Source: Synechococcales cyanobacterium GL140_1_metabat_312
GTDB lineage: Bacteria; Cyanobacteriota; Cyanobacteriia; Leptolyngbyales; Leptolyngbyaceae
NCBI GenBank assembly: GCA_025351345.1
Contig: JANXWB010000012.1
Location: 1 to 42,099 of the forward strand
DNA: 42,099 nucleotides
Direction: 5' to 3'
Each line of letters opens with the position of its first letter. Positions within the stretch are counted from its first letter, which is position 1. This document shows positions 20,308-37,921 of the stretch, in pieces. Both the position numbers and the translations under genes were made by a program. The notes under the pieces are model-generated. The model worked only from the letters and a program-made list of their open reading frames with translations. It made no database searches and had not been told where the DNA came from.

Positions 20308-20353
20308 TTATTTGTGCAATCGATCGAGTGTTATGTAAGTCTAAAAGATACAA

Positions 20354-20392
20354 AAAAGTCGGATTAGAAAACTTGTTTCCAACCCGACTTTT
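20354..20392. terminator. Bidirectional terminator between fur-type gene and ndhD
   Basis: AAAAGTCGG (20354-20362) and CCGACTTTT (20384-20392) form a perfect 9-base stem with A runs on one side and T runs on the other, between two convergent genes. Confidence 0.85.
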
Positions 20393-20417
20393 AACTGAAC
20401 TCTATTGATTAATCGTC

Positions 20418-22004
20418 TTACTTCACAATTACAGTGTCATTTATATTAGGAGCCATCGAAACCCGAATCAAAGGACTATTATTAGATGCGATCGTTGGTA
20501 AAACCATCCTTGCATTTTGTGCAATCTGAACCGCAGTTGCGTCATAAGTCTGCGTGATTAGCTTTGGATAGAACCCAATACCAATAATCGGCAACATCAA
20601 CGAGGCTGCAATAAACAATTCGCGTGGCTTCATATCTAAGAATACTTGCCCTTCAACGGCTTTCCCTTCTTTACCGTAAAACATTTCCCGCAGCATCGAC
20701 AGTAAATACATGGGTGTGATAATTAATCCCACTGCCGCCAAAAACACAATAATAGTTTTAAAACTTGTCGAATAGATTTCGCTATTTGCAAAGCCTAAGA
20801 ACACCATCAGCTCACCGACAAACCCACTCATTCCGGGCAATGCCAATGAGGCCATGGATGCGATCGTGAATAGTGCAAAGGTAGACGGCATTTTCTTGCC
20901 CAATCCACCCATTTCATCCATGTTCAACGTGTGGATCCGATCGTACGTAACCCCTGCTAAGAAGAACATTACCGATGCAATTAGGCCATGGGAAACCATC
21001 TGTAGCATCGCGCCACTCATGCCCAAGTCAGTAAACGAAGCAATGCCCAGTAGCACGAATCCCATGTGAGAAATTGACGAATAGGCCATACGGCGTTTTA
21101 GATTGCGCTGTGCAAAGGATGCCAATGCGCCGTAGACAATGTTGACCACACCCAAAACAGCCAAAACAGGCGCGAAATAAGCGTGAGCATTAGGAAGCAT
21201 TTCTACGTTCATCCGAATCAAGGCATATCCGCCCATCTTCAACAGAACTCCAGCCAGAATCATCGACACTGGGGCCGAAGCTTCACCATGGGCATCGGGG
21301 AGCCAAGTGTGTAATGGAAATACCGAAAGCTTGACGCCATAGGCAATCAACAACCCGGCATACATCAGCAATTCAAAGCCTAGGCTGTAGTCCTTCAGGC
21401 CCAACTGCGTCAAATCAAACGTCAACGCCCCGCCGCCATAAAAGGCCATCGCCAAGGCTGCAATCAGAATAAAGATAGAAGCGCCTGCGGTGTATAGAAT
21501 GAACTTAGTTGCCGCGTATCGTCGCTTTGGACCGCCCCAAATTGCAATAAGCAAGTAAACCGGAACGAGTTCTAGTTCCCAAATCAGAAAAAATTGAATT
21601 AAGTCTTGCGCACAAAATACTCCAATCTGAGCGCTGTACATCACCAGCATTAGAAAATAGAACAACCGAGGTTTTTCCTTGACCTGCCAACCTGCCAAAA
21701 TCGACAGCGTAGTCACAAGTCCCGTCAACACCACTAGGGGCATCGACAATCCATCGATCGCCAAGGACCAATTGACCCCTAACTGTGGCAACCAAGTGAC
21801 GCTCTCGCTCAACTGATAGCCTGCTTCCGAGAAATCATAATGCTTCCAGAGCGCATAGAGTGACAGCGCGAAATCAGCTAGTCCAACCCCTAACGCATAC
21901 CAGCGGACAGTTCGCCCATCTTTATCAGGGATTACAGGAATGAAGAGCGCGGCTGCGAGAGGCAGCATGATAATGGTCGAAAGCCAAGGAAACGTTGTCG
22001 TCAC
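20418..22004 (-). CDS. ndhD: NAD(P)H-quinone oxidoreductase chain 4 (NdhD)
   Basis: A 528-residue proton-pumping membrane subunit of the NDH-1 complex, homologous to NuoM, with about 14 transmembrane helices. Landmarks are [37 protein letters not shown], the [15 protein letters not shown] loop and [18 protein letters not shown]. It resembles NdhD1/D2 of the respiratory and cyclic-electron-flow complex rather than the CO2-uptake D3/D4 forms; this assignment is by eye. The start is a GTG at 22004 ([10 protein letters not shown]). No ndhF lies next to it, and a 738-base spacer precedes it. Confidence 0.95.
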
Positions 22005-24698: not shown

Positions 24699-25256
24699 AT
24701 GATGCGTCAAGTGATTTTGGTGACGGGGGCAGCGCGATCGGGTAAGAGTGAATGGGCGGAACGGGTAGCATCGGAGTCAGGAAAGCAAATTGTATATGTG
24801 GCGACAGCCCAACGATATGAGAATGATGCGGAGTGGGATGCGCGAATTGATCTACACATTGCACGTCGTTCACAGAGTTGGCGATCGGTGGAAGTTCCGT
24901 TTGAGTTGGCGGGGGCGATCGATTTGGGAATTGAGAATGAATGTTTTTTAATTGATTCTCTGGGAAGTTGGGTGGGAAATTGCTTGGAAATGAATGAAGA
25001 GGATTGGCGATCGGGTTGTGATTGTTTAATTTCTAGTATTAAGTCTAGTATTGCGAGTTTGATTTTTGTTTCTGAGGAGACGGGCTGGGGCGTGATTCCA
25101 GCTTATTCAATGGGGCGATTGTTTCGCGATCGGTTAGGGGGATTGATTCGGGAGTTAGGCCAAATGGCCGATCAAACATTTTTGGTAGTGGCCGGTTTTG
25201 CTGTTGATGTACAAAAGATTGGGGTGGCGATCGATCGGCCTAAATTCCCCTTATGA
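24699..25256 (+). CDS. cobU: Adenosylcobinamide kinase / adenosylcobinamide-phosphate guanylyltransferase
   Basis: CobU (CobP) phosphorylates adenosylcobinamide and transfers GMP to it in cobalamin nucleotide-loop assembly. The 185-residue protein has a P-loop GAARSGKS (10-17), the guanylylated His53 in LHIARRSQSW, a VEVPFEL segment and the IDSLGSWVGN metal site. The VSEETGWGVIPAYSMGRLFRD stretch is typical. Tandem ATG codons start the gene; the second (24702) is better spaced from the GAGGAG just upstream. No other cob gene is in the window. Confidence 0.95.
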   Translation: MMRQVILVTGAARSGKSEWAERVASESGKQIVYVATAQRYENDAEWDARIDLHIARRSQSWRSVEVPFELAGAIDLGIENECFLIDSLGSWVGNCLEMNEEDWRSGCDCLISSIKSSIASLIFVSEETGWGVIPAYSMGRLFRDRLGGLIRELGQMADQTFLVVAGFAVDVQKIGVAIDRPKFPL

Positions 25257-25383
25257 ATGGGGATTATGAATTTCCAGTGTGATTACTCGACCAATGGTTT
25301 TATGCGGCGTAACAGGTATGTTATTGGACTAGTAACAATGACGAAATCTCTATCATCTTAACAACTAAATATTTATTGATTTT

Positions 25384-25492
25384 ATGAATCCTCCCTTAAT
25401 CACGGGTTACAATCCCCAGCTTGTCATTGTACTCTGTCGCGATCGCTATCCTAGCCTCCTACACGGCTTTAGACCTGGCTGGACGAGTGAAT
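25384..25492 (+). pseudogene. Remnant of the 5' end of an MHYT-domain histidine kinase gene
   Basis: These 109 bases align with the first 108 bases of the intact MHYT kinase gene at 33693. By hand there are about 12 substitutions and a single inserted A (near 25431). The start reads MNPPLITGYNPQLVIV, then the frame shifts; the shifted frame continues SVAIAILASYTALDLAGRVN as in the parent. Homology ends abruptly where the antisense gene for the 1957-residue kinase reaches its last conserved residues. Some upstream bases (ACTAAAT before the ATG) also match. It is a dead fragment left by duplication and recombination. Confidence 0.85.
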
Positions 25493-28400
25493 CGGTAAGC
25501 GGATGCAGAATTCGGTGCCTTGCCCCAGCTCAGACTGAACCTCTAAGCTTCCCTTATGTTTTTCGACCACAATTTGACGAGCGATCGCTAACCCCAACCC
25601 CGTACCTTTACCGACAGCCTTGGTAGTAAATAAATGGTCAAAGATTTTTTGTTTGACTGATTCACTCATCCCTTTACCATTATCCAGAATGGCAATTTTT
25701 ACCATTTCATTTTCGATCGATGTTTGAATGGTGATCCAGTTAGGATTCACTTTAATTTCTGCAAAACTCTGACCATTATTTGATTCATCCAAAGCATCGA
25801 TCGCATTTGCCAAGATATTCATAAATACCTGATTCAACTGTCCGGGAAAGCATTTAATTTGAGGTAAATTGCCATAATTAGTAATCACTTCAATAGCGGG
25901 ACGTTGGTCGTTAGCTTTGAGGCGATGTTTGAGAATGAGAATGGTGCTATCGATACCTTCGTGAATATTAAATGGCACTTTGTAATCTCGATCGGCACGG
26001 GAAAAAGTGCGTAAACTGGTGCTGATATTTTTCAGCCTCTCGCACGCCATCGTCATCGAACTAAGCATTTTGGGCAAGTCTTCTAGGCTATATTCTAAGT
26101 CAATTGATTCGGCATGGTCGAGGATTTCTTCACTCTTGTTTGAAAAAGTCTCTTGATAGAGTTTGAGGTGTTCAAAAATCTCAGTAAACGTTGGTTTAGC
26201 TTGCTCGAGACTGGCAGCAATAAAACCTAAAGGATTATTCATTTCGTGAGCAACACCAGCTACTAAGTTGCCAAGTGCAGACATTTTCTCACTTTGGATG
26301 ACTTGTAATTGGGCTTGTTGCAAGCCAAGTTCAGCGATTTTGCGTTCGGCTTCAAGCCGCGCCCTTTCGCTAATATCAAAAAACAATCCATCCCAAACTA
26401 GCGTTCCATCAGCACGTTGTTCAATTCTGGATTCGCCGTGAATCCACTTGACGATTCCTGACGGAGTAATGATTCGCCCTTCCCAGCACCAGGGAGATAG
26501 AGTTTGAACTGTGTCAGTGCTTGATTTCTGGTAACAAACTCTATCATCAGGATGTATTATTTTGTCAAAAAAAGTTGGTTCAGTAGCGGCTTGCTCTGGC
26601 GTAATTTCGTACAAGCTGTAACAGTCAGCACTGATGTAATTTAATGAGAGGATTCCATCAGTACTCATCTGGTATTGATAAACCACCCCAGGCACGTTGT
26701 TTACAAGTTTTTCAAAACGAGACTGTGCAGCACTCAATTCGGCAAGCGATCGCTCAATTTGTTGGCTATATTCCTGAGACTGTTGATATAGTCGAGAATT
26801 TTCTAAGGAAATGGCGGCTTGAGTGCAGAGGAAATTGAGGATGAGAATACGATCGCCCGTAAAGACAGCTCTTGTGGTTCGGTTCTCTAAATATAGAATC
26901 CCAATAAGATGTCCTTGGTTAAGAATGGGCAAACACAATACACTCTGTGGCTGTTGGCGATTGAAATATTCACCAATCACAGGTAATTCGGTTTTGAGGT
27001 CGTCAATAACAACAATTTCTTGCGTATTTTTAACGTACTGAATTAACTTCAAGGGGCAGTTAATGTTGCCCTCGATCGGTTGGGTGCATAGTTCTGTTGC
27101 TTCGGGTGTGGCGATCGCCCGTACTTGCCAGATTCCATCATTGTCCGGCAAAATCAACGCACAGCGATCGCCTCCAGAGTTTTGCAGAATAACTTGAGTC
27201 AGTTGTTGCAACAATTCATCGAGTTGAATCGTACTCGATAGCGCTTGAGAAGCTTTGATAATGGTGGCAAAATCGAGGGCAGTATTGATGCTGCTACTAG
27301 ACGAGTGGTTGGTTTTGGTGGAGGAGTGGAGCGATAAGGCGGGATTAGCCAGCGTTGCTAAGGTTTCTAGAGGATTCAAAGTCAATGCTGCTTGTTGGAG
27401 AATGGGTTGCAGCAATTGGGGATAGCGTTGTTCTAAATCGGCGACTTTGGCTTTGGCTCCCCATCGGGCATAGCAATAATAGGCTTCTTGCATATAACCC
27501 GCCGCAACTTTTTCTTTGCCCCAATCAAGATAGAATTTAGCAGCAAGTTCGTTGGCTAAGGCTTCTTCTTGGATGTATTCGTTCGCTTTTGCCCCAGCTA
27601 TGGCGCGATCGTACATTTCTATAGCTTTAGTCAATTGTTTCAGCACGCGATACCGTTCTGCTTCCACCAGATGAAACTTATGTAAGAAATTCATGGGCGC
27701 AAAACTTGCCCACTTTTTCAATCTTTTCTGATTTTGGGTGATGTGGCGTAAGATTTGCGATCGCTCTCTTTTGCTTGCGGTGGGATACAGCGCCAGCCGT
27801 GCTAAGGAATCGTAGAGGCAGAAGGGCACATTCAGCGCTAAGGATATTCCAGCATCCTCGTATTTTTTGGCAACGATGGCTTGTTTGACAGCATTTGAAA
27901 AGTCACCAAATAAATAACTCAAACCAGTCTGGATAATATAGTAAGAAAATAGTCCGTTGCGATTGCCTGATGCTTCTTGGATCGCATTCTGGGCTTGTGA
28001 ATAAACTGAACCGTCAAGCATAGTAGGGTCAGAAGATTCACCTATTAAATTCAGGACAGCTTGGTGATAAATATTGATATAAACCAAAGAAAGATGTTGC
28101 TTCGATTGTTCCACAGCTTCGCCATAGTAGTGGAGAGTTTTCTCTAAGTTAGAGAGTTCGCCTCCGGCAAAGTACAAATGGCTGATCTGGATAATGGCTG
28201 CCCAGGCTGAGTTCTCCAAGTCGCCAGTTTCCAAGCCAACCTGGTATGCCTCTTGAAGAGGCGATAAAGTGGATCGGAGATGCTGTTTCCAGTGCAGTAT
28301 AAAACCGTCTACTACCACTAGAACTTTGGATCGCATATCTTTGGCATTAAATTTCTCTAAAATTTGCAACGCCAATTGACCAAACTCATAGCCGCGATCG

Positions 28401-31342
28401 ATATCGAACAACACTCCACAAAAAAATGTGCCATGACAGCTATAGGCATAGGCAGATAGGGGCAGATTGCCGTACTGCACTGATAAATTCACTTGCTGGA
28501 ATCCCAATAGGGAGGCTAGTTTCGGTGTGGTAATCAGAGCGACACCTATCGCACTGGCAAGAATCCGCATCGTCGCCAATTTTTCTGGGTTGGACATGGT
28601 AGGCAGATTCAGTAAGTCAGACATTTTTTTCCTGCCTAAGATGAGTGTTGTTTTGGCTAATCCCAGTAAAAGCTCTACTGTAGTTGGGTTTTGGGGTAAC
28701 TTGATGCCAAGTTGCTTCAGGATATTCAGTGCAGTCTGGAGCGCTTCGGTGAGCCGATTCTGCGCCAGATATGCCTGAATTTGAGTCTCGTAGGTGGGGA
28801 TTTTATCTAACAGGGTTTCAGCAGACTTGAGGGTGAGGTTGACGATCGCATCCATTTGTGCAAACTGCCCGCTTAAGTAGGCAACCTGCGCTGTGGCTTC
28901 ATGGAGGGCAAGGGTTAATTCATAGTGCGATCGCCAGCAATCTTGTTCTAGCAATTCTATACCTGTCGTGAAATAGGCGATCGCCGCACTATAAGCAGTC
29001 GCTGATTTTGCTTTACGTCCAGCAGCCAAATTTAATTGAGCTAATTCAGTGCGTTTTGACGGCACAGTAATTAAGGATTTCCCGATATTCAGATGGTTAG
29101 CGATATCAAACAGTTTTTCCTCAAGCTCTATCTGGGACGAATTTTGCTGAAGTAATTGTCCTATTTTGAGATGAGTTGCTGTTTTTCGCTCTTCAGGAAT
29201 CAGAGAATAGGCGGCCTGCTGGACGCGATCGTGTAAAAATTTATAGGGAACTGCAATGTCTTGATGATTATTTCTCTGGTCTGATTCTTCCTGCGATTGG
29301 AAAAATTTGTAAGTTTCAGTTTGGGGCAAAATCAACCCTTCTTGCAGGCTTTTCCACAAAGCCGTCCCCGCTTCTGTTTGAGATTGTTCTGAAACCATCG
29401 CCAAAGTGCTTAAATCAAACAGATTACCAATACAAGCAGCCAGTTTGAGGATATCTTGGCTAGAGGGAGGCAACTTCTGTAACTGCAACGCCATAAACTC
29501 CACCACATCATCCGTCAGTGCTGCATCCCGAACTCGCACAATATCGCATTGCCAATGCCCCGACTCCATGTCAAATTCAATCAATCCATCTTGATGTAAT
29601 GCCTTGAGAAACTGCGTCGCAAAAAACGGATTTCCTCTAGTTTTTTGCCCGATCGCATCCGTTAACGGTGTCGCCAAATCTGGAGTGCAATTGAGCGTAT
29701 CAGCAACCAAGTGATTGAGACTGGATTGGCTTAAGGGTTGCAGCGTGATGCTATTCACGGTTGCACCTGCTTTCACTACTGCATCTATTGTCAACATCAA
29801 TGGATGTACTGGTGATACCTCATTATCCCGGTAGGCTCCAATTAGCAACAAATAGCCAGTTTCCAACCCGGACATTAACAGTTGCATCAGATTTAATGAT
29901 GCAGAATCTGCCCACTGCAAGTCATCCAAAAACATCACTAACGGATGTTCTTTTGTCGTGAAGACTTTAATAAAGTTTTGAAATAGCAGGTTAAATCGAT
30001 TCTGTGCCGCTGTTCCTGATAATTCAGTTGCCGTTGGTTGCTGCCCAATAATTCTTTCTAATTCGGGAATTACTTCAATAATTACTTGCCCATTTTCCCC
30101 CACTGCATTCAAAATCTGAGTTTTCCATGTTTGCAATTGCCGATCGCTTTCACTGAGCAATTGTCCCATTAAATCTCGGAAAGCTTGCACAAAAGCACTG
30201 AAGGGGATATTGCGATTAAATTGATCAAATTTACCTTTGACAAAATAGCCTCTTTGTTTAACAATCGGCTTATGCACTTCGTTAACTACAACGGTTTTAC
30301 CAATCCCAGAGAAACCCGCTACTAGCATCATTTCTGATGTGGTGTTACTGACACGCTCAAAGGCTTCTAGTAGTGTTTCAACTTCGATTTCTCGTCCGTA
30401 AAGTTTTTCGGGGATGATGAAGCGATCGCACACATCCCTTGTTCCAATCTCGAAACTCCGAATTTCACCAGTTTCTTGAATTTGAGTTAAACAATTTTCT
30501 AAATCAAATTTCAATCCCAAAGCACTTTGATATCTGTCTTCAGCATTCTTCGATATCAATTTGCTGACGATTTTTGAGAGTACAGGCGGGATTTCCGGGT
30601 TAATTTTATGTACTAATGGTGCTGTTTTGGCAATGTGACAATGAACCAACTCCATTGGATCATTTGATTGAAATGGTAACTCACCAGTGAGTAATTCATA
30701 GAAAGTTACACCGATTGAATAAAAGTCAGTGCGGTAGTCAATTCCTCTATTCATTCTGCCTGTTTGTTCGGGAGAAATATAAGCAAGTGTCCCTTCTAAG
30801 ACATTAGGATTGATGAGTGTTTGCGTTTCTCGTGGTAATAAAGATGCAATACTAAAGTCGATTAATTTAACTTCTTTAGTTTCGGGATTAATTAAAATAT
30901 TAGCGGGTTTAATATCTTTGTGAATAATCCGCTCTCGGTAGAGAATATCTAAGATGTTGCAGAGGGCGATCGCTAGAACTAAAAATTCTTGTAGAAACGT
31001 TACATCTAGAGTCTCTACAGCAGCAAAATATTCTTTTAGAGAAATCCCACTAAAATCTTCCATCACCAGCGCATAGCCATTTTGATAGGGTTCTAGCCTG
31101 TAGGTGGAGATAATTAAGGGTGAGTTGAGATTTTTGGCGATGGTGTACTGATTGCGAAACTGTACCAATTCGCCAAAGCTGGGATAATCGCGCCGCAGTA
31201 CCTTAATCACTACCGGACGCTGCTGAGCTGTCTGTATGGCTCGATACACTGCTGTGCGAGACCCCAGATACAGTTGCTCAACGATGGTATAGCCACCAAT
31301 TTCAGGAAATGCTTTGAAGAAGGTACTTTGTGGAAGGTTCAT
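25469..31342 (-). CDS. Ser/Thr kinase - AAA ATPase - GAF - PAS - histidine kinase fusion
   Basis: A 1957-residue cytoplasmic signalling protein. The Ser/Thr kinase (about 14-290) has Lys47, the catalytic HKDIKPAN (141-148) and DFS (162-164) in place of DFG, which is usual for this family. A STAND/AAA-16 type ATPase follows, with Walker A GFSGIGKT (343-350) and Walker B FLDDLQW. TPR-like helical repeats run to about 1300, then a GAF domain (about 1370-1515), a PAS domain (about 1540-1650), and the histidine kinase with His1699 (GVAHEMNNPLGF), N-box NQVFMNILANAIDAL and G-box GKGTGLGLAIA. The last six residues after IRLPI and the stop codon come from antisense of the MHYT remnant. It has no receiver. 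It lies 136 bases downstream of the split kinase on the same strand. Confidence 0.95.
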   Translation of the reverse strand: MNLPQSTFFKAFPEIGGYTIVEQLYLGSRTAVYRAIQTAQQRPVVIKVLRRDYPSFGELVQFRNQYTIAKNLNSPLIISTYRLEPYQNGYALVMEDFSGISLKEYFAAVETLDVTFLQEFLVLAIALCNILDILYRERIIHKDIKPANILINPETKEVKLIDFSIASLLPRETQTLINPNVLEGTLAYISPEQTGRMNRGIDYRTDFYSIGVTFYELLTGELPFQSNDPMELVHCHIAKTAPLVHKINPEIPPVLSKIVSKLISKNAEDRYQSALGLKFDLENCLTQIQETGEIRSFEIGTRDVCDRFIIPEKLYGREIEVETLLEAFERVSNTTSEMMLVAGFSGIGKTVVVNEVHKPIVKQRGYFVKGKFDQFNRNIPFSAFVQAFRDLMGQLLSESDRQLQTWKTQILNAVGENGQVIIEVIPELERIIGQQPTATELSGTAAQNRFNLLFQNFIKVFTTKEHPLVMFLDDLQWADSASLNLMQLLMSGLETGYLLLIGAYRDNEVSPVHPLMLTIDAVVKAGATVNSITLQPLSQSSLNHLVADTLNCTPDLATPLTDAIGQKTRGNPFFATQFLKALHQDGLIEFDMESGHWQCDIVRVRDAALTDDVVEFMALQLQKLPPSSQDILKLAACIGNLFDLSTLAMVSEQSQTEAGTALWKSLQEGLILPQTETYKFFQSQEESDQRNNHQDIAVPYKFLHDRVQQAAYSLIPEERKTATHLKIGQLLQQNSSQIELEEKLFDIANHLNIGKSLITVPSKRTELAQLNLAAGRKAKSATAYSAAIAYFTTGIELLEQDCWRSHYELTLALHEATAQVAYLSGQFAQMDAIVNLTLKSAETLLDKIPTYETQIQAYLAQNRLTEALQTALNILKQLGIKLPQNPTTVELLLGLAKTTLILGRKKMSDLLNLPTMSNPEKLATMRILASAIGVALITTPKLASLLGFQQVNLSVQYGNLPLSAYAYSCHGTFFCGVLFDIDRGYEFGQLALQILEKFNAKDMRSKVLVVVDGFILHWKQHLRSTLSPLQEAYQVGLETGDLENSAWAAIIQISHLYFAGGELSNLEKTLHYYGEAVEQSKQHLSLVYINIYHQAVLNLIGESSDPTMLDGSVYSQAQNAIQEASGNRNGLFSYYIIQTGLSYLFGDFSNAVKQAIVAKKYEDAGISLALNVPFCLYDSLARLALYPTASKRERSQILRHITQNQKRLKKWASFAPMNFLHKFHLVEAERYRVLKQLTKAIEMYDRAIAGAKANEYIQEEALANELAAKFYLDWGKEKVAAGYMQEAYYCYARWGAKAKVADLEQRYPQLLQPILQQAALTLNPLETLATLANPALSLHSSTKTNHSSSSSINTALDFATIIKASQALSSTIQLDELLQQLTQVILQNSGGDRCALILPDNDGIWQVRAIATPEATELCTQPIEGNINCPLKLIQYVKNTQEIVVIDDLKTELPVIGEYFNRQQPQSVLCLPILNQGHLIGILYLENRTTRAVFTGDRILILNFLCTQAAISLENSRLYQQSQEYSQQIERSLAELSAAQSRFEKLVNNVPGVVYQYQMSTDGILSLNYISADCYSLYEITPEQAATEPTFFDKIIHPDDRVCYQKSSTDTVQTLSPWCWEGRIITPSGIVKWIHGESRIEQRADGTLVWDGLFFDISERARLEAERKIAELGLQQAQLQVIQSEKMSALGNLVAGVAHEMNNPLGFIAASLEQAKPTFTEIFEHLKLYQETFSNKSEEILDHAESIDLEYSLEDLPKMLSSMTMACERLKNISTSLRTFSRADRDYKVPFNIHEGIDSTILILKHRLKANDQRPAIEVITNYGNLPQIKCFPGQLNQVFMNILANAIDALDESNNGQSFAEIKVNPNWITIQTSIENEMVKIAILDNGKGMSESVKQKIFDHLFTTKAVGKGTGLGLAIARQIVVEKHKGSLEVQSELGQGTEFCIRLPIHSSSQV

Positions 31343-31478: not shown

Positions 31479-32513
31479 TTACAGCTTGACTGATAACCGA
31501 ATAATAAATTCTGTGCCCTGCCCTGGAGATGAATTCAAACTTAGAGTTCCGGCATGTTTCTCATTAATAATTTGCCGGGAAATTGCTAGTCCTAAACCTG
31601 TGCCTTTACCCACTAGCTTTGTCGTAAAGAAGTGATCAAAGATTTTGGTTTTGATTTCCTCCTTTATTCCACAGCCATTGTCACGAATCCGGATTTCAAT
31701 TTGATCTGGTTCATGCATCTGTGTGCTGATCCAAATTTTGGGCATTGAATAGTCTGCATCGTTAACTATACTGAGTTTTCCAGAATCAGTGGCTTCTTCC
31801 AGCGCATCCAGCGAATTTGCTAAAAGATTCATAAACACCTGGTTGAGTTGGGCGGGATAGCATTCTACGGGTGAAATATTGCCATAGTCTTTGATGATTT
31901 CAACCTTGCATTGATCGCTGTAGGCTTTGAGCCGATGTCCCAATATCAATAGAGTGCTATCAATTCCTTCATGGATATCTGCGGTCTTGAACGAAGCTTC
32001 GTCTAAGCGAGAGAAATTGCGCAGAGATAAAACAATTTGTCGAATTCGATCGGTTCCTACTTTCATTGATAAAAGTGTCTTGGGTAAATCTTTTAAGATA
32101 AAGTCAATATCCCAATCCTCGGCTTGTTCCTGAAATGCCTGTATATCTTGGGTGCATTTAGGATCAATCTGCTGGTAGAACAGAGCCATGGTCACTAAAG
32201 TATTGACATATTCATTCACATGGGTCAGATTCCCATGAATAAAGTTAATCGGGTTGTTGATTTCGTGAGCGACTCCAGCAACTAGGTTTCCTAGGCTTGC
32301 CATTTTTTCATTTTGAATCAGTTGCATTTGAGACGTCTGAAGTTGATTTAAAGTTTGTTGAAGTTCTTCAGAACGTTGCTCTTTTTCATTCAGCAGGATT
32401 TTGACCTGTTTAATCAAACCATTCAGTTGCGTTGCTAAGATGCCTATTTCATCAGTGGTTGTGACCGAAGCTTGCAGATCAAAGTTAGAGGTTTGTGTGA
32501 CTTGCTGCGCCAC
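31479..32513 (-). CDS. HAMP-histidine kinase fragment (second half of a split gene)
   Basis: This 344-residue piece begins within a HAMP linker (GTG at 32513, then AQQVTQTSNFDLQASVTTTDEIG) and runs through a coiled coil into a histidine kinase core, with His83 in GVAHEINNPINFIHGNL, N-box NQVFMNLLANSLDAL and GKGTGLGLAIS. It is in the same reading frame as the upstream fragment (32559-33215); only a TAA within a 72-base insertion separates them. If translated alone from the GTG it would be a soluble kinase without its membrane sensor and with a truncated HAMP. The gene reads towards the giant kinase. Confidence 0.85.
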   Translation of the reverse strand: MAQQVTQTSNFDLQASVTTTDEIGILATQLNGLIKQVKILLNEKEQRSEELQQTLNQLQTSQMQLIQNEKMASLGNLVAGVAHEINNPINFIHGNLTHVNEYVNTLVTMALFYQQIDPKCTQDIQAFQEQAEDWDIDFILKDLPKTLLSMKVGTDRIRQIVLSLRNFSRLDEASFKTADIHEGIDSTLLILGHRLKAYSDQCKVEIIKDYGNISPVECYPAQLNQVFMNLLANSLDALEEATDSGKLSIVNDADYSMPKIWISTQMHEPDQIEIRIRDNGCGIKEEIKTKIFDHFFTTKLVGKGTGLGLAISRQIINEKHAGTLSLNSSPGQGTEFIIRLSVKL

Positions 32514-32623
32514 AGTTGTGACGGCTTGGAGTGGCTTAGTAATGCTGTTAGGATCGGCTTACTGCATTTCGGCTACTCCACAACAAGTTGTGACGGCTTG
32601 GAGTGGCTTAGTAATGCTGTTAG
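32514..32623. repeat. 38-base direct repeats flanking a 34-base filler inside a kinase gene
   Basis: The 38 bases at 32514-32551 recur exactly at 32586-32623; offset 72. They encode NSITKPLQAVTT of the HAMP helix twice. The 34-base filler between them carries an in-frame TAA (32559-32561). Removing one repeat unit plus filler (72 bases) restores MANSITKPLQAVTTVAQQV and an uninterrupted gene. Confidence 0.92.
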
Positions 32624-33215
32624 CCATTCGCAACCCGACAAGCAATGCGAGCACAAGACCACCCAGACTAGTGAGACCAATCACAATCAGGAGGGGTCTG
32701 GCTTGGGCGATCGCTTCGTCATATAGCGATGACCACTCTAAAACGACAGCACCCCCGATCGTGTCTGACGAGGCTTTCAACGGCACAACAATCAGCTTAA
32801 TGCCTTGAGGATAATCGACACTTTTTTCTAAAAAGATTCTGGGTTTTTTATCCTGCATTGTCTGCCGAATCTCATTGCCCTGATCGTGGTCAAAAATAGT
32901 GCCAACATTTTCAGGGACAGCATCCGCCAAGATCAGCTTTTGGCGATCGACCACCACAATGTCGCGCTTTAGCAAGTCATGCAGAATATTTGTGTAATGT
33001 TGCAGTTCGCCGAACTTTTCGGTGGAAATGACCTTTTGATCATAAAAGGTGCTGTGGGAAATCGAGGCTGCCATCACCTCGGCAACGTGTTCGGCTTCGG
33101 TAATCGCTGAGGTTTCAGTAATTTTTTGAGCTTGGGTGACTGCCACTGCGCCGACCACTCCCGTTAATAGGGAAATACCAACAAAGCTTCCAACCAATTT
33201 ATGAGAAATCTTCAT
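32559..33215 (-). CDS. Membrane sensor fragment of a split histidine kinase (first half)
   Basis: This 218-residue piece is the sensory half of a membrane histidine kinase. It has an N-terminal transmembrane helix (about 8-27), a periplasmic domain of about 130 residues (QHYTNILHDLLKRDIVVVDR; IFLEKSVDYPQGIKLIVVPLK), and a second helix (LLIVIGLTSLGGLVLALLVGL). It ends in the start of HAMP and the aberrant tail CCGVAEMQ before a TAA. The ATG at 33215 (MKISHKLVG) starts just ahead of the first helix; an upstream ATG at 33275 would add 20 residues. The kinase part continues in the same frame after the stop. The whole gene is best read as one disrupted kinase. Confidence 0.82.
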   Translation of the reverse strand: MKISHKLVGSFVGISLLTGVVGAVAVTQAQKITETSAITEAEHVAEVMAASISHSTFYDQKVISTEKFGELQHYTNILHDLLKRDIVVVDRQKLILADAVPENVGTIFDHDQGNEIRQTMQDKKPRIFLEKSVDYPQGIKLIVVPLKASSDTIGGAVVLEWSSLYDEAIAQARPLLIVIGLTSLGGLVLALLVGLRMANSITKPLQAVTTCCGVAEMQ

Positions 33216-33275
33216 AGCGATCGAAACTCTTCGGGGCTGTTTTAAGAATACTTCCTGACAAAAGAGTTTAGACAT

Positions 33276-33692
33276 TACTCCATCAGAATAGTGCTAACGT
33301 TCCCAATCACCCGCCGCAGATAGCCTTCTACACTATATAATAGACGATGTGCAACTTTTTCTGAGGCAGTCGTATCAGCTATTCTACAATTATAGAATAT
33401 AGTCAGCCTGATTTCGAGGTTCTCAAAAGCCCATGAATTCAAGCTTTACAAAAATAAAGTTGCACATCGCCCACATAATCACATCCCGTAGATCGCGCGT
33501 TACCCCAACGAATTTTAGTGGGTTGCTTAATCTTAGACCTTGGAATCTATCCTGCAGTGCATCCTCGTCTCTTTATGGGCATCCTTTAAGTTAAGGAACC
33601 ATTTATCCTTTTCCCAAAGAGATGAACGGCTAGAACGTCAGAATTAGCGAATCTCTACAACGCATATCATTAACTAAATCTCTCTCCATTCT
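33276..33692. other. 417-base spacer with a foldback element
   Basis: This lies between the divergent split kinase and MHYT kinase genes and should hold both promoters. About 33345-33469 is a foldback element, listed separately. Bases 33470-33692 contain no gene that was recognised. Confidence 0.45.
33345..33469. mobile_element. MITE-like foldback element
   Basis: CGATGTGCAACTTT (33345-33358) and its exact reverse complement (33456-33469) bound a 125-base segment. A second perfect hairpin TATTCTA-N6-TAGAATA (33380-33399) lies within. It encodes nothing. The structure is that of a non-autonomous miniature element. No convincing target-site duplication was found, and no second copy was seen in this window. 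Confidence 0.5.
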
Positions 33693-36383
33693 ATGACTCA
33701 TTCCTTCATCACGGGTTACAATCCTCAACTTGTCATTGTCTCCGTCGCGATCGCCATCCTAGCCTCCTACACTGCTTTAGACCTGGCCGGACGCGTGAAC
33801 GCAACCCAGAACCGTACTCAAGTGGGTTGGCTGATCAGTGGAGCGGCTGCCATGGGCACTGGGATCTGGTCGATGCACTTCATTGGCATGTTGGCATTTC
33901 GACTGCCTGTTCGCGTTTATTACGACTTTCCGACAGTACTCCTTTCTGTTTTGCCCGCCATGAGTGCCTCGGGACTAGCTCTATTTTTGGTCAGTCGCCC
34001 GACCTTGGGTTGGCCCCGGCTATTGGGGGGAAGTCTCTTCATGGGATTGGGGATTGCCTCAATGCACTATATCGGCATGGCATCAATGCATACGTCAGCA
34101 CTGATGCATTATAATTCCCAGATCGTTACGCTCTCGGTTCTAGTGGCGATCGTAGTCTCTTTTATAGGGCTATTTTTAGTATTCCAGTTGCGAGAAGAAA
34201 CAACGCCGCATCAAACCTGGAAGAAACTCCTAGCTGCCATCATTATGGGAACAGCGATTCCAACGATGCACTATACAGGTATGGCTGCCGCCTCTTTCGT
34301 ACCCACGTCCCATACAGTACTGGAGTTGGATTTACAGCCTCCCGAAAACATAATCCTCCTAGCTGCTGCTGTCGTCATCGGCACCCTAATTATTTTAGGA
34401 CTAGCCTCGTTGGCTGCCTTTTTTGATCGCCGACTGTCTGCTCAGGTCATCTATGCTCAGGCACTCCAGGAAAGTCAGAAATCTCTCAAAGCAATTCTAG
34501 AAGGGATTCAGGTCGGGGTGTTGGTAATCGGAGATGATGCTCAAGTTCAGGCCGCAAACCATGCCGTTCTTGACCTGTTAAATCTTTCTAACACCGCAGA
34601 ATTACAACAATTGTGGGACAAAACCGTCGCAACCAACCTGGATTCATCCTCACCCGACCCTTCAGAGGACCAGCTTATCCAGTCCCTTCAACCCGTATTG
34701 CAGCAAATTATCGCCAGACAGTCTGTGCAGAATGCCGTTGTTTACATCGCATCCACCAAGAACCAAGAACCAACTGCACTCTTGGTCAATGCGGTTCCTT
34801 TGCATTTACCCGATACCTCTTTAACTCAGATGATCTGTACATTTAGCGAGATTACAGACCTGAAGCAAATTGAAAACCGTCTCAAAGAATCTGAGGCTAA
34901 ATTTAGAGACTTAGCGATACAAGAAGAACTCTTAAATCGTCTCTCAAATCAGATTCGAGAATCTCTGGATCTGCCTACGATTCTGCAAACCGCAGTCTGT
35001 GAAGTCCGTAATCTTTTCGCAACCGATCGAGCCGTGATCTATCAGTTCGATGCGAATTGGCGCGGAGAGGTGATTCTTGAAGATGTGGTTGAACCCTGGC
35101 TCCCTACCTTAGGTGAAGCGTCAGATGATTGCTTTCCGACAGAGTGTCTCGAAGGCTACCGAAATGGCAGGGTCAAGGCAATTAACAGCGTCTTGGAAGC
35201 AGGGTTAGACTCTAGTCATCTTGAGTTTCTGCAACGCCTGCAGGTGCAAGCTAACATAATTGTGCCGATTATGGTGTGCGATCAGCTTTGGGGGATGCTG
35301 ATTGTCCATCAATGTAGTCACCCAAGAGTTTGGAAAGAGGAGGAAGGTAATTTACTATATCGGCTAGCCATTCAGTTAGGCATTGCCATTCAACAATCAG
35401 ATCTTTATAACGAGTCTGAGCAGAGTGCACTGCAAGCCCATGTGCAAGCTCAACAATTGCGTGAATCTGAAGCTCTACTCCAGCAGCAAACCCAAAACCT
35501 CCAACAAGCTTTTCAAGAACTACAAAGTGTTCAACTACAGCTTGTTCAAAGTGAAAAGATGTCTAGTCTAGGCCAATTGGTGGCTGGCGTTGCCCATGAA
35601 ATCAATAATCCGGTCAATTTCATTCACGGCAACCTGAGGCATGTGAATACCCATAGTCAGGATTTGTTGAGTCTGGTGGAACTTTATCAGAAACACTACC
35701 CAAATCCGATCGCTGAAATACAAGCAAAGGCAGAAGAAATCGACCTACCATTTTTACAGCAGGATTTTGATAAAATTCTTGTCTCAATGAAAGTAGGCAC
35801 CGATCGCATTCGCCAGATCGTTCTGTCTCTGCGCAACTTCTCACGGATGGATGAGGCTGACTTTAAGGAAGTGGAGGTTCATGAGGGAATTGATAGCACC
35901 TTAATGATTTTGCAACATCGCCTGAAAACGCGCGCTAAATATCCAGCCATTAAGGTGATTCAGGATTATGCTAAGTTGCCGTTGGTGGAGTGCTACCCTG
36001 GACAACTCAATCAAGTATTAATGAATATTCTGTCGAACGCCATTGATGCGCTAGAAGAGGCCGACATAACACGAACTGTTCAGGACATCCAAGATAATCC
36101 AAATCAGATCATCATTCGGACCAGCAGGGTCGATCGGCAGTGGGTAGAAATTAGGGTCCTTGATAATGGTCCCGGTATGCCTGAAAAAGTGAAGGAACGG
36201 ATTTTTGATCCCTTCTTTACCACCAAGTCGATTGGTAAAGGAACTGGTATAGGACTCTCCATCAGCTACAAAATTATTGTTGAAAAACATGGCGGTAAAC
36301 TACAGTGCTTTTCCAATCCCAATCAAGGAACAGAATTTGTGATTCAGATTCCCATCCAGCAACAAGCTTTTAGATCTGTCTAA
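33693..36383 (+). CDS. MHYT - PAS - GAF sensor histidine kinase
   Basis: An 896-residue membrane kinase. The N-terminal MHYT domain has seven predicted helices with the three signature repeats MHFIGM (61), MHYIGM (124) and MHYTGM (192); MHYT domains are proposed to bind copper and sense diatomic gases. A PAS domain (about 255-385) and a GAF domain (about 405-565) follow. The GAF resembles bilin-binding domains but has Ser-His (DSSHLEFLQRL) where the chromophore Cys-His is expected, so it probably binds no bilin. The kinase core has His635 (GVAHEINNPVNFIHGNL), N-box NQVLMNILSNAIDAL and GKGTGIGLSIS. No receiver is attached. A 9-base tandem repeat overlaps its stop codon (36378-36395). Confidence 0.94.
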   Translation: MTHSFITGYNPQLVIVSVAIAILASYTALDLAGRVNATQNRTQVGWLISGAAAMGTGIWSMHFIGMLAFRLPVRVYYDFPTVLLSVLPAMSASGLALFLVSRPTLGWPRLLGGSLFMGLGIASMHYIGMASMHTSALMHYNSQIVTLSVLVAIVVSFIGLFLVFQLREETTPHQTWKKLLAAIIMGTAIPTMHYTGMAAASFVPTSHTVLELDLQPPENIILLAAAVVIGTLIILGLASLAAFFDRRLSAQVIYAQALQESQKSLKAILEGIQVGVLVIGDDAQVQAANHAVLDLLNLSNTAELQQLWDKTVATNLDSSSPDPSEDQLIQSLQPVLQQIIARQSVQNAVVYIASTKNQEPTALLVNAVPLHLPDTSLTQMICTFSEITDLKQIENRLKESEAKFRDLAIQEELLNRLSNQIRESLDLPTILQTAVCEVRNLFATDRAVIYQFDANWRGEVILEDVVEPWLPTLGEASDDCFPTECLEGYRNGRVKAINSVLEAGLDSSHLEFLQRLQVQANIIVPIMVCDQLWGMLIVHQCSHPRVWKEEEGNLLYRLAIQLGIAIQQSDLYNESEQSALQAHVQAQQLRESEALLQQQTQNLQQAFQELQSVQLQLVQSEKMSSLGQLVAGVAHEINNPVNFIHGNLRHVNTHSQDLLSLVELYQKHYPNPIAEIQAKAEEIDLPFLQQDFDKILVSMKVGTDRIRQIVLSLRNFSRMDEADFKEVEVHEGIDSTLMILQHRLKTRAKYPAIKVIQDYAKLPLVECYPGQLNQVLMNILSNAIDALEEADITRTVQDIQDNPNQIIIRTSRVDRQWVEIRVLDNGPGMPEKVKERIFDPFFTTKSIGKGTGIGLSISYKIIVEKHGGKLQCFSNPNQGTEFVIQIPIQQQAFRSV

Positions 36384-36466: not shown

Positions 36467-37915
36467 CTAGACCATTTCTACAGGAATCTTCAGGATAAAT
36501 TCCGTCCCTTCTCCTAGTACAGAATTCACTTCAATGGTCCCGTTGTGTTTCTCAACAATAATTTGACGGGCGATCGCCAATCCTAAACCAGTTCCCTTAC
36601 CGACTTCTTTGGTTGTAAATAAGTTTTCAAAAATCCTTTGCTTAGTTTCCTCATTCATTCCCATCCCATCATCTTGAGTCTTAATCACCGCCCACTGTTG
36701 ACAAGTGGATAATTGAGTTGTGACGGTGATGTGGTTAGGTCGTAACTTGATTTCTGCGAAGCTTTTACCCTGATTAGATTCGTCGATCGCATCGATCGCA
36801 TTTGCGAGTAAATTCATAAAAACCTGATTGAGCTGTCCCGGAAAGCACTGGATAAGTGGCATCTCATGATAGTTTGTGACAACCTCAATAGCTGGGCGAT
36901 GCTCATTTGCCTTCAGACGATGCTTCAGAATAAGCAACGTACTGTTCAGACCTTCATGAAGATTGAAGGGGACTGGCGATTCTGTATCGGCCCTAGAAAA
37001 TGTTCTAAGACTAGTGCTGATGCTCCCAACACGCTTGATCCCTTCACGCATGGAATGGAATGTTTTTGGTAAATCTTCCCGAAGATAGGCTAAATCGATT
37101 CTCTCCATCTCAGCCTCAATTTCCGGCCCTGGATTGGGAAAGATATTCTGATATAAATCAAGCACCCCGAATAGATCGCGTACATAGTCTTGCGCTGGTT
37201 GCAAGTTGCCTGACAGAAAACCAACCGGATTATTGATCTCATGCGCTACACCAGCAACCAGACTCCCCAGGGCTGACATTTTTTCCCGTTGGATGAGTTG
37301 CAGTTGAGATTGTTGCAATTGATCTAATGCTGATTGCAGTTCAGAAGTTTGAAGTTCAAGCTTCTGATTCAATTCTTGTAGGGCAATATCTGCTTGCTTC
37401 CGCTCAGTAATGTCTTGATAGGTGCCAAGAATCCCGATAACTTTACCACTTGCATCGTGGAGAGGTGCTTTATTAGTTTCTAGCCAAGCCTTTGTCCCAT
37501 CCCCTTGATGTTGCGGTTGTACGATTCCCTGTTCAGCGCGATTGGCTAACATGACGCGACGATCGCATTCTTGAAAGAAGTCTGATTCTTCTGTCTTCCA
37601 CACCAAATCATAATCAGTTTTGCCAATAATATTTTTGGGAGAGCCGACCCCTGCATCTTCTGCAAAATTTTGGTTGCAGCCTAAATAAACTGAATTGCGA
37701 TCTTTCCAGAAAATCGCCTCGGGCAATGTATCCATGACCAATTGCAAAAGATGCTGAGAGGCTTTCAGTTCACGCTCTACTTGTTCACGATAGATCCGTT
37801 CTTGCTCACCAACTTGCTTGAATACCTTGATCTCTTGTTGGGACTGGTTGAGCGCTTGCTCTAAGTGTGCAATCACTTCATGGAGCTGACTCACGGATTC
37901 ATCTAACTTATCCAT
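36467..37915 (-). CDS. Soluble PAS-domain sensor histidine kinase
   Basis: A kinase of about 482 residues without membrane segments. An N-terminal coiled coil (about 1-55) leads to a PAS domain (about 58-175) of the PAS_4 type (LPEAIFWKDRNSVYLGCN, then GILGTYQDITERKQAD). A second coiled coil joins it to the kinase core, with His225 (GVAHEINNPVGFLSGNL), N-box NQVFMNLLANAIDAI and GKGTGLGLAIA. Two GTG codons precede the ATG chosen here. The PAS ligand is unknown. It is convergent with the MHYT kinase (51-base-scale spacer with no clear terminator), and its catalytic core is closest by eye to that of the giant kinase. Confidence 0.93.
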   Translation of the reverse strand: MDKLDESVSQLHEVIAHLEQALNQSQQEIKVFKQVGEQERIYREQVERELKASQHLLQLVMDTLPEAIFWKDRNSVYLGCNQNFAEDAGVGSPKNIIGKTDYDLVWKTEESDFFQECDRRVMLANRAEQGIVQPQHQGDGTKAWLETNKAPLHDASGKVIGILGTYQDITERKQADIALQELNQKLELQTSELQSALDQLQQSQLQLIQREKMSALGSLVAGVAHEINNPVGFLSGNLQPAQDYVRDLFGVLDLYQNIFPNPGPEIEAEMERIDLAYLREDLPKTFHSMREGIKRVGSISTSLRTFSRADTESPVPFNLHEGLNSTLLILKHRLKANEHRPAIEVVTNYHEMPLIQCFPGQLNQVFMNLLANAIDAIDESNQGKSFAEIKLRPNHITVTTQLSTCQQWAVIKTQDDGMGMNEETKQRIFENLFTTKEVGKGTGLGLAIARQIIVEKHNGTIEVNSVLGEGTEFILKIPVEMV

Positions 37916-37921
37916 CACCAC

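Follow-up and report, generated by a model that had tools for sequence, protein, structure and literature searches.

Deletion is known to leave truncated gene remnants (pseudogenes) in bacterial genomes. For convergent genes, PMC4161906 outlines overlap by movement of the stop codon, in which a gene without its stop runs antisense into its neighbor up to the next stop, and PMC11347149 mentions MHYT fused to HK. The locus described here resembles deletion pseudogenes in comprising a short 5′ gene fragment, frameshifted by one base, that lies beside an unrelated gene and has an intact paralogue elsewhere, but differs from them in that the neighboring gene also owes its stop codon to the join. 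As in the convergent overlaps of PMC4161906, one gene, here that of a giant kinase, appears to have lost its stop and runs antisense to the next one; unlike the overlaps outlined there, the neighbor is no live gene but a dead remnant, and the change seems to have come with the joining of two genes. A convergent overlapping pair of live genes was ruled out, since the remnant is frameshifted and only 36 codons long. The intact paralogue resembles MHYT-domain sensor kinases in its MHYT stretches, GAF and HATPase_c; the remnant, unlike these kinases, keeps the first 36 codons only. A literature search found nothing on this locus.

Genomic setting

The window (the whole stretch of DNA analyzed, 42,099 nucleotides) is one entire contig (C83) of a genome of 3.85 Mb in 100 contigs, and its nearest matches are cyanobacterial. 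The features on which the analysis rests are the following.

24699..25256, + strand: cobU (CobU by Pfam); nucleotide similarity to congeneric genomes ends about 15-19 bases before the gene end
25345..25383, + strand: short leader piece of the remnant, alignable with MHYT kinase gene leaders; the homology stops inside the piece
25384..25492, + strand: 5′ remnant of a likely second MHYT kinase gene, from the start codon through codon 36, a single base being inserted near 25431
25487..25492, no strand: six-base overlap GTGAAT at the join, present in the MHYT parent (as G001, G278) and in the kinase parent (as G050, G309)
25469..31342, − strand: giant kinase (Ser/Thr kinase, AAA_16, GAF, PAS, HATPase_c), whose final residues and stop run antisense through the remnant
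33693..36383, + strand: intact MHYT-GAF-HATPase_c kinase gene, of the genes compared the one closest to the remnant

The product of the intact gene is a kinase of 896 residues, with MHYT stretches (Pfam PF03707), GAF and HATPase_c. Other histidine kinase genes or fragments with related kinase domains lie in the same 42 kb (74-949, 31479-32513 and 36467-37921). Promoter and terminator scans of 25200-25700 gave signals at background level.

The remnant is a fragment cut at both ends

According to the original prediction, the first 108 bases of the MHYT kinase gene at 33693 recur beside the giant kinase, and nucleotide alignment of the two regions confirmed this far above chance. In a blastn comparison of 25200-25600 against the window, positions 25363-25492 matched 33672-33799 at 111 of 129 bases (86%) with one gap and an E value of 2e-38, the coding part of the remnant, its first 108 bases, carrying 12 substitutions relative to the copy in its own genome and the one inserted base. 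The match stops at 25492, in codon 36, and the rest of the MHYT gene is missing at this place; the retained codons lie before residues 55-113, the stretch where the intact protein matches MHYT best. No third place for 33500-34100 was found in the own genome at E 0.001, only the remnant and the intact gene, and with the intact gene masked the window held no further MHYT-specific piece besides the remnant and general similarity of kinase domains.

On its 5′ side the remnant aligns for 21 bases before the ATG with its own genome's copy and for 39 bases with the copies of two other genomes, G001 and G278. Past the nearest 21 bases, upstream homology of the remnant with the own copy scored 10, a value reached by 45 of 200 shuffles, and with G001 again 10 (51 of 200 shuffles); the same comparison between the own copy and G001 scored 60, reached by none of 200 shuffles, and these two are alike for about 200 bases upstream. 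Homology being limited on both the 5′ and the 3′ side, the remnant is a fragment cut at both ends, about 130-150 bases long, and the early end of its upstream homology indicates that at least one further event cut its left side. In the gap between cobU and the remnant (25236-25365), a search of 58 genomes at E 0.01 recovered, besides the gap itself, only a recurring piece of 31-34 bases. This piece, at the end of cobU (25239-25272), recurs once in G001 (contig C74) and once elsewhere in G000 (contig C70) and is hairpin-like by eye.

The cobU locus in congeneric genomes

Nucleotide similarity of the window to the congeneric genomes G001, G002 and, more weakly, G003 extends with gaps from 20327-20419 to 25237-25241 and ends in the last bases of cobU, behind which all three carry other genes or reading frames. 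An intact MHYT kinase beside cobU, which the original prediction proposed to look for in related genomes, was not found: an MHYT kinase is the next gene downstream of cobU in none of G001, G002 (69% complete) and G003. The contigs of G001 and G002 end about 2.0 and 1.4 kb past cobU, so that only the nearest neighbor is visible there. Likewise, the unjoined ancestral arrangement was not found behind cobU in these three genomes. The MHYT kinase of G001 is located at another locus, adjoining a trypsin-like/PDZ protease gene, and the MHYT gene had no match in G002 and G003. A close relative of the giant kinase is also absent from the three congeneric genomes (best long match 54%, in G002), and the kinase block behind cobU is therefore peculiar to this genome among the four compared; within the own genome the best long match of the giant kinase reaches 57%, on contig C44.

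A separate observation concerns the Cache-type histidine kinase gene at 31479-33275 (− strand), which contains a perfect direct repeat of 38 bases at 32514-32623, the copies lying 72 bases apart, likely in the HAMP region. An in-frame TAA within the 24 extra codons makes one gene read as two ORFs; the relative in G006 has an uninterrupted open frame of 588 residues. No other copy of the repeat was found in the own genome. Since dropping one repeat copy would restore a single frame, the repeat might serve as a reversible switch, or else be a recent accident.

Was the remnant once translated?

Changes were counted by branch, with the copies of the own genome, G001 and G278 as references. On the remnant branch, codons 6-36 showed no change at 57 first and second positions and three changes at 18 third positions (Fisher p 0.012), counts that are small and for which the limit at codon 6 was picked after the alignment had been seen; with codons 2-5 added, the figures are 2/63 and 3/21 (p 0.10). 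The other branches have the same pattern in codons 6-36, with 0/57, 1/58 and 0/57 changes at first and second positions and 5/20, 4/19 and 3/18 at third positions in the own copy, G001 and G278, respectively. Among the 24 upstream columns, 5 of 18 changed on the remnant branch, which is more than at first and second positions of codons 6-36 (p 0.0005), also when codons 2-5 are included in the latter (2/63; p 0.005), although these upstream changes may in part reflect the edge of homology rather than a plain neutral rate; the corresponding upstream figures are 0/13 for the own copy and 1/14 each for G001 and G278. These comparisons suggest, with moderate confidence, that for much of the time since it separated the remnant copy was translated.

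In coding distance the remnant is 12/108 from the own copy, 16/108 from G001 and 14/108 from G278, and the own copy is 16/108 from G001. A FastTree phylogeny of ten sequences (181 columns, including 60 upstream bases) placed the remnant on a long branch as sister to the own gene (local support 0.84), both standing apart from G001 and G278, a sister grouping that is tentative given the short alignment. The proposal that a second MHYT kinase gene once lay here is supported in part as far as its existence goes, by moderate evidence of coding constraint; its other part, an intact copy at this very spot, is not, given that no MHYT kinase is found next downstream of cobU in the three congeners and that the upstream side of the remnant is cut. 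We regard a lost second MHYT kinase gene as likely.

Occurrence of the MHYT kinase at unrelated loci

The MHYT kinase gene together with about 200 upstream bases occurs at three unrelated loci in two genera (window 33491-36383; L063, 4815-7703; L204, 8162-11054). The three copies, from the own genome, G001 and G278, have ends that agree within a few bases and are 86.6-89.1% identical, which points to horizontal transfer. We see only a slim prospect that MHYT kinases of this group move about as units of some 2.89 kb with sharp boundaries and that the remnant is the leftover of a second arrival at this spot. The left limit of the remnant, 21-39 bases upstream of the start codon, differs from the left end of the unit. 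The unit was rejected as a mobile element, since no clear terminal repeats or target duplications were seen at its ends by eye and no second copy of its left end was found in the own genome. Matches to plasmids came from seven records (six Nostoc and one Kovacikia), each with its best place in the kinase part only, and the MHYT gene had no match in these seven records in megablast mode. Viral contigs gave one distant MHYT match (36%).

The join with the giant kinase

The MHYT match ends at 25492, the HATPase_c match of the giant kinase ends at residue 1951, corresponding to base 25490, and the G050 kinase is homologous at the nucleotide level from 25487 onward. The MHYT homology was predicted to stop exactly where the giant kinase finishes its conserved domain, and it does so with a six-base overlap of the two matches; the accompanying claim that the terminal HSSSQV and TAA of the kinase are antisense of the remnant proved equally correct. 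The overlap consists of the bases GTGAAT, as judged from the relatives G001/G278 and G050/G309, which are stand-ins for the true parents; the own MHYT copy has five of the six. On the MHYT side, the window and G001 agree at every printed base through GTGAAT and diverge after it, and on the kinase side (+ strand) no base differs from G050 over GTGAATCGGTAAGCGGATGC, 20 bases counted from GTGAAT. By formula, assuming equal base use, a random join would show at least six common bases with a chance of about 0.13% and at least five with 0.46%. Six common bases at the breakpoint and nothing longer are the mark expected of a microhomology join and suggest such an origin here, and a join at MHYT codon 36 between parents that have six bases in common and lie on opposite strands looks illegitimate.

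The join was searched for in 388 genomes of the class, 71 of which matched part of 25340-25700 at E ≤ 1e-20; with up to two places per genome scored, only the own one of the places listed spans both the MHYT and the kinase part. A genome carrying both genes, intact and facing each other, was not found.

The C-terminal tail of the giant kinase

The new C-terminus that had been predicted for the giant kinase is real but small. Relatives with other endings, which were to be looked for, exist: the kinases of G050 and G309, whose genes finish with ATTCACGCTGAGTAG, end in LPIHAE and LSIHAE before the stop, the own-genome paralogue on contig C44 ends in LPIPAE, and the window kinase ends in LPIHSSSQV. 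Over the 60 printed bases G050 and G309 hardly differ and therefore count as one lineage; the contigs carrying these two kinase relatives have no MHYT match. The tail change was likely one from AE-stop to SSSQV-stop, about two residues becoming five, with the pre-join tail taken from relatives whose protein identity there is about 68-69%.

The HSSSQV ending occurs at none of 28 other kinase loci in a first set and none of 16 in a second, one locus being common to both. The first set comprised 30 loci, namely the window (L001), L011, which lacks a kinase match, and the 28 others, among which L009 aligned only in part and L013 runs through a stop. Past the last conserved motif (LPI or alike), tails at the 28 loci range from zero to about 20 residues, and the 16 loci show an equal variety of endings. 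Since kinase tails vary so freely after this motif, the new tail is probably neutral and no effect would be expected from it.

The C-terminal part of the giant kinase (25490-26329) is possibly a mosaic, being G133-like down to about 25630 and more like G050 and G309 in its final 70 bases. Per 70 bases, identity from 26329 to 25630 is 0.67-0.93 with G133 and 0.44-0.79 with G050, G309, G273 and C44; at 25629-25560 all five compared genes lie at 0.79-0.84; and in the final 70 bases the values are 0.60 for G133, 0.87 for G050, 0.83 for G309, 0.79 for G273 and 0.73 for C44. These figures may reflect a past exchange of kinase ends or a divergence of the G133 end, in either case separate from the join.

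Origin of the locus

From the comparisons above we favor, with moderate confidence, an origin by deletion between two genes that converged. Facing the giant kinase gene, the + strand would have carried a second gene for an MHYT sensor kinase, closely paralogous to the one at 33693; this second gene was probably translated and under selection while it diverged. A deletion with its ends in the GTGAAT microhomology would have fused MHYT codon 36 with the final codons of the giant kinase gene, taking with it the remaining MHYT kinase gene (about 2.6 kb, if of the same length as its sister) and the original stop of the giant kinase, which would then read five extra antisense codons (SSSQV) to a chance TAA. 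The remnant, also bearing the one-base insertion, would now be non-functional. That there was a single deletion, that both genes converged here, and in what order insertion and deletion occurred is what we infer from this arrangement, and the locus as a whole looks like a case of ordinary gene loss and decay.

Alternatively, the join might have arisen when a kinase cluster (the giant kinase and the split Cache kinase) was acquired or was inserted into a second MHYT gene, or it might already have existed in a donor genome. The giant kinase and its neighbors are indeed absent from this place in the three congeneric genomes, and MHYT kinases do move between genera (86.6% nucleotide identity between the own copy and that of G278 at unrelated loci), but insertion of a cluster should leave the 3′ part of the MHYT gene on its far side, and with the intact gene masked there is none in the window; such an origin is conceivable but unlikely. 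We consider it rather improbable that a full second gene never existed here and that the remnant is filler DNA, 130-150 bases that a repair event copied from an MHYT gene. The restriction of changes in codons 6-36 to third positions (3/18 against 0/57, p 0.012) requires time spent as a translated gene, and 12 differences in 108 coding bases argue against a recent copy of the own gene. These points have to be set against the homology cut on both sides, upstream too, the weaker outcome of the constraint test with codons 2-5 (p 0.10), and a nearby gene in the window that bears another insertion with filler-like DNA.

The mechanism put forward in the original prediction, a recombination between paralogous kinases that replaced the body of the MHYT gene, was not borne out. 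The join offers only six common bases between unrelated protein segments, and with parents that are unlike around it and on opposite strands an exchange between homologous kinase domains is no explanation; the possible mosaic of G133-like and G050-like ends in the giant kinase could be taken in its favor, but G133 may merely have diverged in its final 70 bases, and we judge homologous recombination of this kind very improbable. Equally little probability is attached to an assembly error, either in the form of a chimeric join or at a single base. The assembly comprises 100 contigs, and the locus was judged from the assembled sequence, but the remnant departs from the one other copy detected at 12 of 108 coding bases and so is no misplaced copy of it, and the point of joining coincides with matching ends of two genes.

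If a deletion between convergent genes is indeed its origin, the locus would be a readable case of a bacterial protein gaining a new tail, in which a neighboring gene was reduced to a stump and the antisense of the stump provides the stop. The lesson is a modest one, since the tails of these kinases vary freely past the last conserved motif. For annotators it carries a warning against taking the final residues of the giant kinase for conserved protein.
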